Assembly (NCBI GenBank): GCA_902574475.1
Contig: CACGNZ010000007.1
Coordinates: 1 to 61,667 of the forward strand
Source of the DNA: an uncultured Alphaproteobacteria bacterium
GTDB lineage: Bacteria; Pseudomonadota; Alphaproteobacteria; HIMB59; GCA-002718135
Length of the DNA stretch: 61,667 nt
Direction: 5' to 3'
Of this stretch, positions 2,356 through 61,094 are shown in pieces. Position 1 is the first letter of the stretch. Each line of letters starts with the position of its first letter. Made by a program: the position numbers and the translations under genes. Below the pieces are notes generated by a model that did no database searches, was not told the DNA's origin, and saw nothing but the letters and a program-made list of their open reading frames with translations.

Positions 2356-2801
2356 TAGATAAAACATTGTAGGCGAAACTTGTGAGTAGATTACGAAAAG
2401 AACAACTCGTTGGTCTTTTAATGGTTTCGCCTGCATTAATCTTACTTGCAGTTTTCTTTCTTTATCCTCTTGTAAATTCATTTTACATGTCATTTCACAA
2501 ATGGCCACTTTTTGGAAAACCAAAGTGGGTAGGTCTTGATAATTATATTTTTATGTTCCAGGATGAACGTTTCTGGGAGTCATTGAAATTTACATTCGTT
2601 TATACTTTAACTGTTACACCAATGTTATTTGTTGTAGCTATGGGAACTGCACTATTGTGTAATGCAAAAGCTTGGGGAACAACTTTTTTTAGAAGTATCT
2701 ATTTTTTACCTGTAGTTATGTCTTTTGCTACTGCTAGTTATGTCTGGTTATGGCTCTACAGTGAAATGTATGGGGTTATCGTTTATGCATTAGAATTTTT
2801 T
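1889..2801. repeat. Direct repeat, right copy (inside the intact genes)
   Basis: This is the second copy of the 214-1126 sequence, in its natural context. It covers the last third of the binding-protein gene, the junction with its stem-loop, and the first 140 codons of the MalF-type gene. The flanks on both sides read through intact genes, so this copy is taken as the original. Confidence 0.9.
2368..2435 (+). promoter_or_regulatory. Stem-loop spanning the MalF-type start codon (locus 1)
   Basis: The 5' arm at 2368-2380 (core aggcgaaac) pairs with the 3' arm at 2423-2435 (core gtttcgcct), giving 13 pairs with two G-U. The loop of about 42 nt holds the GTG start at 2382, and the 5' arm contains the AGG that could serve as Shine-Dalgarno 8 nt before the GTG. 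The SBP1 stop codon lies only 12 nt before the stem, so a terminating ribosome could open it. Loci 2 and 3 have the same arrangement with compensating base changes (see 13257 and 17415). The left repeat copy carries it too (693-760). Confidence 0.7.
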
Positions 2802-13256: not shown

Positions 13257-13324
13257 AGTAGGCGAAACTTATGAATTTTGTTCGTAAAGAAAAAATCATT
13301 TTCGTTCTAATGGTTTCGCCTGCT
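13257..13324 (+). promoter_or_regulatory. Stem-loop spanning the MalF-type start codon (locus 2)
   Basis: The arms at 13257-13269 and 13312-13324 pair over 13 positions with two G-U. The loop is 42 nt as in locus 1 and contains the ATG at 13271. The arm cores are the same as in locus 1 (aggcgaaac and gtttcgcct), while the outermost pair is A-T here and T-A in locus 1. The loop sequence and surrounding codons have diverged, so the arms are more conserved than their surroundings. Confidence 0.7.
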
Positions 13325-16181: not shown

Positions 16182-17405
16182 ATGAAAATTATATTAAAAT
16201 TTTTTTTAGTACTCTCTACTTTAATTCCTTTAGTAACTTTTTCTTCTCAAGTATTTTCAAGAGAATTAGTTGTTTGGAGTAGACATTCTCCATCACAGAA
16301 TTTGGTAGATGCGTTTAATAAAAAAATGGAAGCAGAAGGTAAAGATTTACGAGCTGTTAATAGCGTACTTGGTGGTGACTTTGTGCCTAAATTTACTGCT
16401 GCTTTAGCTGCGGGTGAAAGAGTGGATGTTGCCGCAATAGACTTAATATATGTTCCTTATTATGCTTCTATAGGAGCTTTGGAGGATATGACTGAGTTTC
16501 TAAAGGGAAAAGATTATTATAATAATCTAAATGGCCCTATGATGCATTTAGGTAGTATAGATGGTAGGCATTATTCTGCTCCAAATGATTTAGGTATATC
16601 AGGTTTTGCTTATAATAAAAAATTGTTACCTAATCCTCCAACAACATGGGCTGAAATGACAACTATGTGTGAAGAATTTGCAAGCAGAGGTAAATTTCTT
16701 ACCGGTTGGCCAACGGTCAGTGGTGGCGGTATGATATACACACACGCACCATGGGGATGGGCTGAAGGTGGAGCACATTCTGGTTGGGTAAACGAAGATG
16801 GCTCTACTGCTAATTTAAATGACTCAACGATGCAAGCGGCTTTTGACCATTTTACTAATTTGCAGAAAATAGGTTGTGTTCCAAAAAATGTTGCTGCGTG
16901 GGATTGGGCAGACAAACAAGATGCATTCCTAAGAGGTGAACTTGCCATGATTGGTACAGGAAACTTCATAATAGGTATGATGGGTGACTATCCAGATATT
17001 GATTGGGGTTTTTTTGCAATGTTTTCATCTGATGGAACTCGCAAATCAGCTTTTGTTGGTGGTGATTTAATTGGTATACCTGTTACTACAGGTGATAAAG
17101 AAGGTGCAATGGAATACATTGAATTCATTTTATCTGCTGAAGGGCAAAGTGTTTATACTCGCCAAAATGGTGGTTTACCAATTCGTTCTGATCTTTTTAA
17201 TACAGATCCTTGTATGACAGATAATCACCGTGTTTTCTTAAATGCTGGTGACACAGGGCATGTTCCTTATACAGTTGTTTATAATGAACTTATGGAACCT
17301 TGGGGTGTTGCTATCCAAGAAATTTACGGTGGAGGCAATCCTGGTAGTGTTTTAGCTAAGCATAATGCTAGAATGCAAGAGATTATAGACGAAGGACCTG
17401 AATAA
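16182..17405 (+). CDS. Sugar ABC transporter substrate-binding protein (SBP3, CUT1 type)
   Basis: A 407-residue paralog of SBP1 and SBP2 with an export signal of about 26 residues (to QVFS, then RELVVW). ATG 16182 is preceded by TGGGAGGTTT, so it is preferred to an in-frame TTG 12 bp upstream. The LAMIGTGNF segment is kept. Compared with SBP1, the binding region around the middle (GWAEGGAHSGWVNEDG) has an insertion. It starts a locus with its own MalF and MalG permeases and a set of oxidative enzymes. Confidence 0.93.
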   Translation: MKIILKFFLVLSTLIPLVTFSSQVFSRELVVWSRHSPSQNLVDAFNKKMEAEGKDLRAVNSVLGGDFVPKFTAALAAGERVDVAAIDLIYVPYYASIGALEDMTEFLKGKDYYNNLNGPMMHLGSIDGRHYSAPNDLGISGFAYNKKLLPNPPTTWAEMTTMCEEFASRGKFLTGWPTVSGGGMIYTHAPWGWAEGGAHSGWVNEDGSTANLNDSTMQAAFDHFTNLQKIGCVPKNVAAWDWADKQDAFLRGELAMIGTGNFIIGMMGDYPDIDWGFFAMFSSDGTRKSAFVGGDLIGIPVTTGDKEGAMEYIEFILSAEGQSVYTRQNGGLPIRSDLFNTDPCMTDNHRVFLNAGDTGHVPYTVVYNELMEPWGVAIQEIYGGGNPGSVLAKHNARMQEIIDEGPE

Positions 17406-17414
17406 AATAATTAA

Positions 17415-17482
17415 AGTAGGCAGTATTAATGAGAAGATCTGATAAAGAACAAATAATCGGTTATCTCCTTATACTGCCTGCT
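17415..17482 (+). promoter_or_regulatory. Stem-loop spanning the MalF-type start codon (locus 3), covarying with loci 1 and 2
   Basis: The arm at 17415-17426 (gtaggcagtat core) pairs with 17471-17482 (atactgcctgc) over 12 positions with one G-U. Outer pairs aggc/gcct are as in loci 1 and 2, but four inner pairs differ on both sides at once (G-C to A-T, A-T to G-C, A-T to T-A, C-G to T-A), so pairing is preserved. The 3' arm lies in codons for ILPA here and VSPA in loci 1 and 2. The loop is 44 nt and holds the ATG at 17429. Confidence 0.7.
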
Positions 17483-18304
17483 GTTCTGTTAGTACTTATC
17501 TTTTTAGTCTATCCTTTTTTAAATTCATTTTACATGTCATTTCATAAATGGCCTGTATTTGGGGATGCAAAATTTGTGGGATTTAAAAATTACATTAAAG
17601 TTTGGAAAGATGATCAATTTTGGAACTCTCTATATTTTACTTTTCTTTATACTATTACAGTGACGCCAATGCTATTTGCATTAGCAATTCCAATAGCTTT
17701 ATTATGTAATATAAAAGCAAAAGGATCAACTCTTTTTAGAAGTGTATATTTTTTCCCTGTAGTTCTATCTTTTGCGGTTTCTGCATATGTATGGATGTGG
17801 TTGTACAATGAATCAAACGGAGTATTTATGTATGGTCTTAGATATTTTAGTATCGTATCAGATGATTATAATATTTGGTTAGAAAGAAATTCATCACTCT
17901 TAGCAGTTAATATTCAAATAACGTGGAAATTTTTTGGCATTTCAATGATTATATTGCTTGCGGGTTTGCAATCAATTAGTGATGATTATTATGAAGCCTC
18001 AAAATTAATGGGAGCTTCACGTATGCAAACCATATGGAATGTGACTCTACCTCTTATTAAAACATCAATTGTGTTATGTTTAATTTTATCAATTGCTGGT
18101 TCAATGCAGGTATATGAACCATTTTTAATCATGACACAAGGAAGTCCTGCAAATTCAACGAAAACATTAGTTATGCATATAGTCGATGTTGGTCTTGATT
18201 ATTATAAGCTTGGTCCTTCTGCTGCCATGGGCACTACATTAATGATAATATTACTTATTATTACTTCTTTGCAATTATCAATTTTACGAAAAGATAACAA
18301 ATGA
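17429..18304 (+). CDS. Sugar ABC transporter permease, MalF/UgpA type (locus 3)
   Basis: A 291-residue paralog of 2382 and 13271, with the EAA loop YEASKLMGASRMQTIW and LPLI. It starts 23 bp after SBP3 inside the covarying stem-loop and ends with an ATGA overlap onto the MalG-type gene. It is expected to form the pore with the product at 18301. Confidence 0.93.
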   Translation: MRRSDKEQIIGYLLILPAVLLVLIFLVYPFLNSFYMSFHKWPVFGDAKFVGFKNYIKVWKDDQFWNSLYFTFLYTITVTPMLFALAIPIALLCNIKAKGSTLFRSVYFFPVVLSFAVSAYVWMWLYNESNGVFMYGLRYFSIVSDDYNIWLERNSSLLAVNIQITWKFFGISMIILLAGLQSISDDYYEASKLMGASRMQTIWNVTLPLIKTSIVLCLILSIAGSMQVYEPFLIMTQGSPANSTKTLVMHIVDVGLDYYKLGPSAAMGTTLMIILLIITSLQLSILRKDNK

Positions 18305-24445: not shown

Positions 24446-24472
24446 AGGCTGCAGTGTATTTGACTGCAGCCT
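24446..24472 (+). terminator. Hairpin between SBP4 and the MalF-type gene (possible attenuator)
   Basis: A perfect 10-bp stem (aggctgcagt with actgcagcct), a 7-nt loop and a following T-rich stretch lie 10 bp after the SBP4 stop and 21 bp before the permease ATG. It has the form of an intrinsic terminator but sits inside an operon, so partial termination or 3'-end protection of the SBP4 mRNA is likely. Confidence 0.7.
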
Positions 24473-59387: not shown

Positions 59388-61094
59388 TTAATACATAAAA
59401 TAACGTTGAGCCAAAGGTAATGTTTTAGCTGGCTCACAAGTAATTAACTCACCATCTGCTAAAACTTCATAAGTTTCTGGATTAACTTCTATTTTTGGAC
59501 AATAATCATTTAGTACCATATCTTTTTTAGAAATTTTTCTAATATTTTTAACAGGTAATAAAGATTTACTTACTTCAGAGTTTTTAAATGAATTTTTGTC
59601 TATAGAAACTTTACTAACAAAAGTGACAGTAGATTTTTCTAATGATTTTCCAAAGGAAGAAAACATTGGCCTTGAGTAAACAGGTTGTGGTGTTGGAATT
59701 GATGCATTAGGATCACCCATTTGTGCACAAGCAATACTTCCACCTTGTAATACCATTTCAGGTTTAACACCAAAAAAGGCAGTATCCCAAATAACAATAT
59801 CAGCACGTTTATTTTTTTCGATACTTCCAATATGATCAGAAACACCATGTGCTATTGCAGGATTAATTGTATATTTGGCAATGTATCTTTTAACTCTTAC
59901 ATTGTCATTATCACCCTGCTCTTCTTTTAATTGTCCCCGTTGAACTTTCATTTTATGTGCTGTTTGCCATGTTCTAATAATAACCTCGCCAACACGACCC
60001 ATGGCCTGACTATCAGAAGCAATAATTGAAAAAGCACCCATGTCATGAAGTATATCTTCTGCAGCAATTGTTTCTTTTCGAATACGACTTTCAGCAAATG
60101 CCACATCTTCAGGTATTGATTTATCTAAGTGATGGCAAACCATTAACATATCCAAATGTTCTTCAACTGTATTAACTGTATAGGGTCTTGTTGGGTTAGT
60201 AGAAGAAGGAATAACATATTGTTCACCACAAACTTTTATAATATCAGGTGCATGACCTCCACCAGCTCCTTCAGTATGAAAAGCATGAATTGTTCGTCCA
60301 TTAATTGCTTTAATTGTACTTTCGACAAATCCACTTTCATTTAATGTATCTGTATGGATCATTACTTGAATGTCATTATCATCAGCTACATTTAAACAGT
60401 TATCTATTGCTGCTGGGGTTGTGCCCCAATCTTCATGTAATTTTAGTGAGCTTGCTCCAGCAATTACTTGTTCTTCAAGTGCTTGAGGCAATGAACTGTT
60501 TCCTTTTCCTGCAAAAGCTAAGTTCATAGAAAAAGCATCTGCTGATTGTATCATTTTCTCTATATGCCATGGTCCAGGTGTAACTGTAGTAGCTAAAGTA
60601 CCATGTGCTGGACCAGTTCCACCTCCCAACATAGTAGTAATACCAGAATGAAGTGCATCATCTATTTGTTGAGGACAAATAAAATGAATATGACTATCAA
60701 ATCCACCAGCTGTTATAATTTTACCTTCACCAGCAATTATTTCTGTTCCAGGTCCAATAATAATATTTACGTTTGGTTGTGTGTCTGGGTTGCCAGCCTT
60801 ACCAATTTCATTAATTAAGCCATCTTTAAGACCAATATCAGCTTTATAAATTCCATTTATATCTACAATTAAAGCGTTTGTTATAACTGTATCAACAGCG
60901 CCGTCCTTGCGAGATACTTGAGATTGACCCATTCCATCTCGAATAACTTTTCCTCCACCAAATTTTACTTCTTCACCATATGTTGTTAAATCTTTTTCCA
61001 CCTCAATAAAGAGTTCAGTGTCAGCAAGTCTAATTTTATCACCAGTTGTTGGTCCATACATATCGGCATAAGCTTCTCTTTTTATTTTTTTCAT
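59388..61094 (-). CDS. ureC: Urease alpha subunit UreC
   Basis: A 568-residue catalytic subunit that hydrolyses urea to ammonia and carbamate. Nickel ligands H135, H137 (SHIHFICP), K218 ([11 protein letters not shown], carbamylated in urease), H247, H273 and D361 are all present, and the mobile-flap histidine is in MVCHHLDK near 321. Full length, so the enzyme should be active. It overlaps ureB by one base (TAATG). Confidence 0.97.

Follow-up and report, generated by a model that had tools for sequence, protein, structure and literature searches.

A stem across the permease start codon at three sugar-importer loci of a HIMB59 bacterium, a candidate variant of the hairpin that follows binding-protein genes

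Binding proteins (SBPs) are needed in excess over permeases, and how this ratio is set in very streamlined ocean bacteria is not settled. In translational coupling, the downstream start codon and ribosome site are enclosed in a stem that the upstream ribosome usually overlaps and opens. In the E. coli malE-malF operon, a stable protective REP stem lies right past the SBP gene (Newbury et al. 1987, as described in PMC5927463). In differentially decaying E. coli operons, protected upstream genes end at stable structures; of 26 protective structures, 17 are located within the coding sequence of the downstream gene, with no U-tract and with wobble conservation, and a dual role in blocking both initiation and decay has been suggested (PMC5927463). 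In cellulolytic Clostridia, stem-loops just past most SBP genes are reported to act as internal terminators that set the ratio of SBP to translocator (PMC9045158), and the 3' stem-loops of Clostridium SRPS have been proposed to set operon stoichiometry via transcript stability (PMC8219983). The AEGEAN-169/HIMB59 group consists of streamlined marine bacteria (PMC10308909). Here we analysed a stretch of 61,667 nucleotides (the window), which is contig C7 of a HIMB59 genome (1.30 Mb, 84% complete, 29.5% G+C), and in which three sugar-importer operons (loci 1-3) carry a stem across the start codon of the MalF-type permease gene.

At all three loci, the stem lies exactly where the original prediction had placed it, with 12-13 base pairs enclosing the permease start codon (Table 1). 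The stems of loci 1 and 2 have 13 pairs each, including 2 G-U pairs, and the stem of locus 3 has 12 pairs, including 1 G-U pair. They begin 12, 12 and 9 nt past the SBP stop codon (loci 1, 2 and 3), in agreement with the expected 9-12 nt. The 5' arm was expected to be intergenic and to hold a possible Shine-Dalgarno sequence, and a weak AGG is indeed found there at locus 1. This arm spans about -14 to -2 relative to the permease start, which adjoins it within a loop of 42-44 nt, and the permease ribosome site is enclosed by the stem. The 3' arm is in coding sequence as predicted, although it occupies codons 14-18 (loci 1 and 2) or 15-18 (locus 3) rather than codons 15-19 or so. The locus-1 permease starts with GTG in the window genome (2382) and with ATG in 13 of 13 orthologs.

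Table 1. Positions of the stems and neighbouring features in the window
Feature	Position	Strand	Remarks
Locus 1 stem, 5' arm	2368..2380	+	Intergenic; contains weak permease Shine-Dalgarno AGG; basis: fold, pairs, 13 orthologs
Locus 1 permease start codon	2382..2384	+	GTG, within loop
Locus 1 stem, 3' arm	2423..2435	+	Permease codons 14-18, V-TCG-P-A, rare TCG; basis: fold, pairs, codon usage
Locus 2 stem, 5' arm	13257..13269	+	Basis: fold, pairs
Locus 2 permease start codon	13271..13273	+	
Locus 2 stem, 3' arm	13312..13324	+	Permease codons 14-18; basis: fold, pairs
Locus 3 SBP gene, SBP_bac_8 / SBP_bac_1	16182..17405	+	Pfam; stop 9 nt upstream of stem
Locus 3 stem, 5' arm	17415..17426	+	Basis: fold, pairs
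Locus 3 permease start codon	17429..17431	+	
Locus 3 MalF-type permease gene	17429..18304	+	Pfam BPD_transp_1
Locus 3 stem, 3' arm	17471..17482	+	Permease codons 15-18, I-CTG-P-A, rare CTG; basis: fold, pairs, codon usage
Ordinary SBP 3' hairpin, fourth importer in window	24446..24472	+	10 bp, wholly intergenic, common form

When 87-90 nt around each start were folded, the z-scores were -5.4, -4.2 and -5.2 for loci 1, 2 and 3, and none of 200 dinucleotide shuffles at each locus was equally stable; the stem by itself accounts for -18.4, -18.1 and -16.6 kcal/mol, respectively. When the codons were redrawn by usage under a fixed protein and the spacer was shuffled, 0.12-0.16% of 5,000 trials per locus gave an across-start stem as strong as the real one. 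An Rfam search found no family matching the stems. At 60662-60941 (plus strand), the window has an Rfam match to 5_ureB_sRNA (126 bits) opposite a 568-aa gene of the minus strand; this antisense match may do no more than reflect conserved urease-type coding sequence.

Comparison of the three loci shows that the AGGC/GCCT base of the stem is invariant and that exactly four inner pairs are altered on both sides in locus 3, both as originally described. The outer pair does flip between loci 1 and 2, as reported: locus 1 has U-A there, and loci 2 and 3 have A-U. In total, 5 of the 13 pairs changed on both sides between the paralogs with pairing retained, and a U-G step is kept at all three loci. 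The replacement of V-TCG-P-A by I-CTG-P-A alters the protein (VSPA versus ILPA) and leaves the arms paired, as had been claimed. In a covariation alignment of nine distinct rows (the three paralogs and the distinct locus-1 orthologs), 99.1% of the cells were paired, the observed covariation score was reached by 0 of 500 shuffles, and both-side changes were zero in all six slid registers. Only three independent lineages stand behind the covariation, with four of the five covarying pairs coming from locus 3 alone, so that the covariation evidence is good, not deep.

The permeases of loci 1-3 share 53-74% protein identity. A comparison of loci 1 and 2 gives 24 matching positions out of 26 in the arms versus 26 out of 42 in the loop (Fisher p = 0.005), and in the rest of malF the same codon is used for only 54% of the identical residues. 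The 3' arm of loci 1 and 2 contains TCG, the rarest serine choice (3.2% of serine codons), and that of locus 3 contains CTG, the rarest leucine choice (1.5% of leucine codons). The locus-1 stem is kept in 13 other genomes of the genus, the records of which are single-cell genomes; the ortholog arms are invariant save one C-G to U-G change (L024), and the spacer upstream of the arm is variable. Synonymous variation occurs among these orthologs at 136 of 258 invariant-residue codons and at none of codons 15-18, an invariance that is weak alone because only four codons are concerned. Loci 2 and 3 were found in one genome only, with no orthologs among the genomes searched, and the locus-1 orthologs were the only other close relatives of the three permeases that a class-wide search (385 genomes) and a contig scan brought up.

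The strand on which pairing is kept was assessed in the 42 hairpins of the survey described below: single non-Watson-Crick steps flanked by pairs were G-U in 16 cases versus A-C in 5 on the sense strand (related sequences counted separately), an excess that points to selection on the mRNA strand. Taken together, the five covarying pairs, the rare 3'-arm codons, the pairing in 13 relatives and the preponderance of G-U over A-C steps make selection on the stem as an RNA structure a well supported reading of these sequences, as the original prediction had proposed. Neither of the outcomes that it had set against itself, an absence of covariation and arms that are unpaired in close relatives, was found.

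To place the three stems in context, we surveyed 588 same-strand gene junctions in importer-rich stretches of three genomes of the order: the window genome, that of a genus relative (G077, 96% complete) and a complete one from another family of the order (G110). The survey is biased to transporter operons because it was drawn from stretches around importers. Gene calls were simple and ORF-based; by a heuristic, a signal-peptide-like gene was taken to be an SBP gene if the gene directly after it was a permease identified through PF00528, and a strong stem was a gapless one with a score of at least 22. A strong hairpin was present at 42 of 46 SBP-to-permease junctions versus 43 of 542 others (Fisher p about 1e-35). 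The effect is very large, although the p-value overstates the evidence, since junctions that are orthologous between two genomes do not count as independent. The median z was -3.6 at SBP-to-permease junctions versus -0.1 elsewhere. Strong stems were present at 6% of permease-to-permease junctions and in 21% of a gap-matched control, a conservative comparison in that SBP junctions make up the strongest members of this control. The SBP hairpins begin a median of 13 nt past the stop codon, and most of them enclose no start codon. Their sequences differ among junctions, and pairing is kept in orthologs. Each remaining SBP-to-permease junction of the window genome has a wholly intergenic hairpin of 10-14 bp.

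Hairpins of the same kind were found where the gene after a signal-peptide-like gene was not a PF00528 permease. The 13 best of these scored 26-33 and follow eleven Pfam-named binding proteins (SBP_bac_1/3/6/8, NMT1, NMT1_3, Peripla_BP_4 and OpuAC), one look-alike (L205, unscanned) and one DUF4856 gene; the next gene encodes an ATPase at five of the 13. Lower-ranked junctions mostly follow genes for membrane proteins and enzymes. Because the hairpins track SBP genes whatever gene comes next, they would act for the SBP message, and the element would belong to the SBP 3' end rather than to the permease start.

Three binding-protein-type genes had no clear hairpin: one of SBP_bac_5, one of SBP_bac_1 with a 19-nt spacer, and ZnuA. 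SBP-type genes at which no hairpin was seen are those of L197 and L156 (609-aa SBP genes), L158:456-2243 and L181:9005-10033. At L204:1417-1580, an SBP gene is followed by a 19-nt spacer with a z of -4.2 and a possible stem within the coding part of the gene that comes next, which may be a further example of a coding-embedded stem. A DUF4856 secreted-type gene at L158:10794-12170 (minus strand) is followed by a hairpin that matches the SBP ones in strength and position. Among MalF relatives of other phyla, hairpins follow many SBP genes (median z of -2.9 in 41, with more than one third of the loci having no usable gene call or upstream gene), which gives no more than a hint of the pattern extending beyond the order.

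Loci 1-3 stand apart from the other hairpin-bearing SBP junctions in the length of the spacer, which is 23-26 nt (23-27 nt counting the G077 ortholog) versus 38 nt or more elsewhere, a ranking that leaves aside one junction with a probably mis-called start. With spacers this short, the 3' arm falls in permease codons. An across-start stem score of 27.5 was reached at 6 of 199 junctions, namely loci 1-3, a contig-end copy of locus 1, the G077 locus-1 ortholog and one unrelated junction (G110). A covariance model run over 162 genomes of the order found only loci 1-3 and the locus-1 orthologs, the next matches having E-values of 0.04 or worse. A REP or BIME repeat was considered and rejected, since this model finds nothing else and the other SBP hairpins are unrelated in sequence. 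Opening the permease ribosome site costs 24.0, 23.5 and 17.9 kcal/mol at loci 1, 2 and 3 versus a median of 9.2; some start-proximal intergenic hairpins are nearly as costly to open, and occlusion is therefore not unique to these loci.

At the contig end, positions 214-1126 of the window are an exact 913-nt copy of 1889-2801, and positions 1-213 can be read as an inverted fragment of the gene that orthologs have immediately before the SBP gene (L029). The region 1-1131 looks like an amplification or an assembly chimera, and the stem copy at 691-762 was for this reason not counted as a fourth locus.

We consider it moderately probable that the stem both forms a 3' barrier of the SBP message and closes off the permease ribosome site, with SBP excess as the result. 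The stem would be an SBP 3'-end hairpin built over a very short spacer, with its 3' arm made of permease codons 14-18. After an endonuclease cut in the permease part, it would halt 3'-to-5' exonucleases, and the SBP part of the message would last longer. Consistent with such a role, loci 1-3 have a stable stem directly after a gene needed in excess, with no U-tract. PNPase is present in all three surveyed genomes; RNase E/G is present in G077 and G110 and was not found in the incomplete window genome. Since the 5' arm with its weak Shine-Dalgarno sequence lies inside the 30S footprint, a closed stem would hinder permease initiation, and such occlusion is likely an extra effect at loci 1-3. A ribosome translating the permease would have to unwind the 3' arm, so that a transcript would be either open and making permease, or closed, permease-silent and SBP-protected. 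As a tentative suggestion, which we hold to be rather doubtful, the stem would be a two-state switch: any one transcript could either be translated for permease or be protected for SBP, because the permease ribosome has to unwind the protecting arm, and the ratio of SBP to permease would depend on whether the 3' arm folds before permease initiation first occurs.

A purely translational device without a decay role, in which the stem masks the permease start until ribosomes completing the SBP gene open it, or in which initiation occurs only before the 3' arm is transcribed, seems unlikely. It would explain why the stem covers the ribosome site and start codon at such a cost of opening (17.9-24.0 kcal/mol) and why the weak Shine-Dalgarno sequence is located in the arm, but most hairpins of the class enclose no start codon and they also precede ATPase genes. 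Moreover, judging by ribosome footprints in general, a ribosome terminating at the SBP stop would touch no more than the foot of a stem that begins 9-12 nt beyond it, and this makes coupling to SBP termination the weaker of the two mechanisms first proposed. The other, a REP-like barrier to decay, is favoured as the function common to the class, since a hairpin occupies this position after nearly all SBP genes of the order, in most cases with no start codon in it, and is present before non-permease genes too. An internal terminator (attenuator) that stops part of the RNA polymerase after the SBP gene, as reported in Clostridia, is distinctly improbable at loci 1-3. In the survey, the 8 nt past the 3' arm of SBP hairpins are 55% T versus a 40% baseline and about half of the hairpins have 5 or more T within 8 nt after the stem; some SBP hairpins with U-rich tails may therefore be attenuators, and some of the Clostridial stems have poor U-tracts (PMC9045158). 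However, loci 1-3 have the long loop described above and no continuous T-run after the 3' arm, rather than the short-loop GC-rich hairpin and U-rich tract of an intrinsic terminator. A terminator scan made no call at loci 1 and 3, but it was limited to loops of 3-8 nt and hence blind to this stem.

The two explanations that dispense with RNA altogether are both very improbable. Chance pairing, kept by protein conservation and the shared ancestry of the paralogs, could draw on the conserved Pro-Ala encoded by GCCTGC and on the small number of independent lineages. Yet the intergenic arm, which is under no protein constraint, follows the coding arm in five pairs, such stems seldom arise with the protein fixed, and the rarest codons are used. 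We give equally little credence to an inverted repeat that acts at the DNA level, for example as regulator half-sites at an operon: paralog-specific inverted repeats could follow regulator specificity, but the retained U-G step at loci 1-3 and the sense-strand excess of G-U over A-C in the class speak for RNA, and the position of the hairpins tracks SBP stop codons.

If the stem is indeed a barrier at the end of the SBP message, loci 1-3 would be an unusual variant with the protective arm written within the permease gene. For one marine order, the survey yields a simple rule, namely that nearly every SBP gene has a hairpin about 13 nt past it, and this general rule may matter more than loci 1-3 themselves. 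Both the rule and the variant predict exact mRNA 3' ends. In the open-access papers searched, we did not find these hairpins reported for Pelagibacter or HIMB59, nor the start-straddling covarying form or the near-universal SBP rule of the order.

Among the known systems, malE-malF of E. coli, as far as it is described in PMC5927463, is alike in operon type and in the place of the stem before malF, and both stems would be expected to favour the SBP mRNA; the E. coli REP is wholly intergenic, whereas the stems of loci 1-3 are non-repetitive, have a 3' arm of permease coding sequence and enclose the start. The coding-embedded stems of E. coli average 107 nt inside the gene, while those of loci 1-3 straddle the start with one arm in the spacer; unlike in the E. 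coli stems, the pairs of loci 1-3 covary between paralogs. The Clostridial SBP stem-loops have been shown to terminate transcription, in contrast to the long loop and lack of a U-run at loci 1-3, and the SRPS stem-loops, also unlike loci 1-3, are wholly intergenic, Gram-positive and found in several operon types. Stems of translational coupling likewise enclose the start, but here the SBP stop precedes the stem by 9-12 nt. The protective SBP hairpin is a kind already known, and the start-straddling form is a variant of it.
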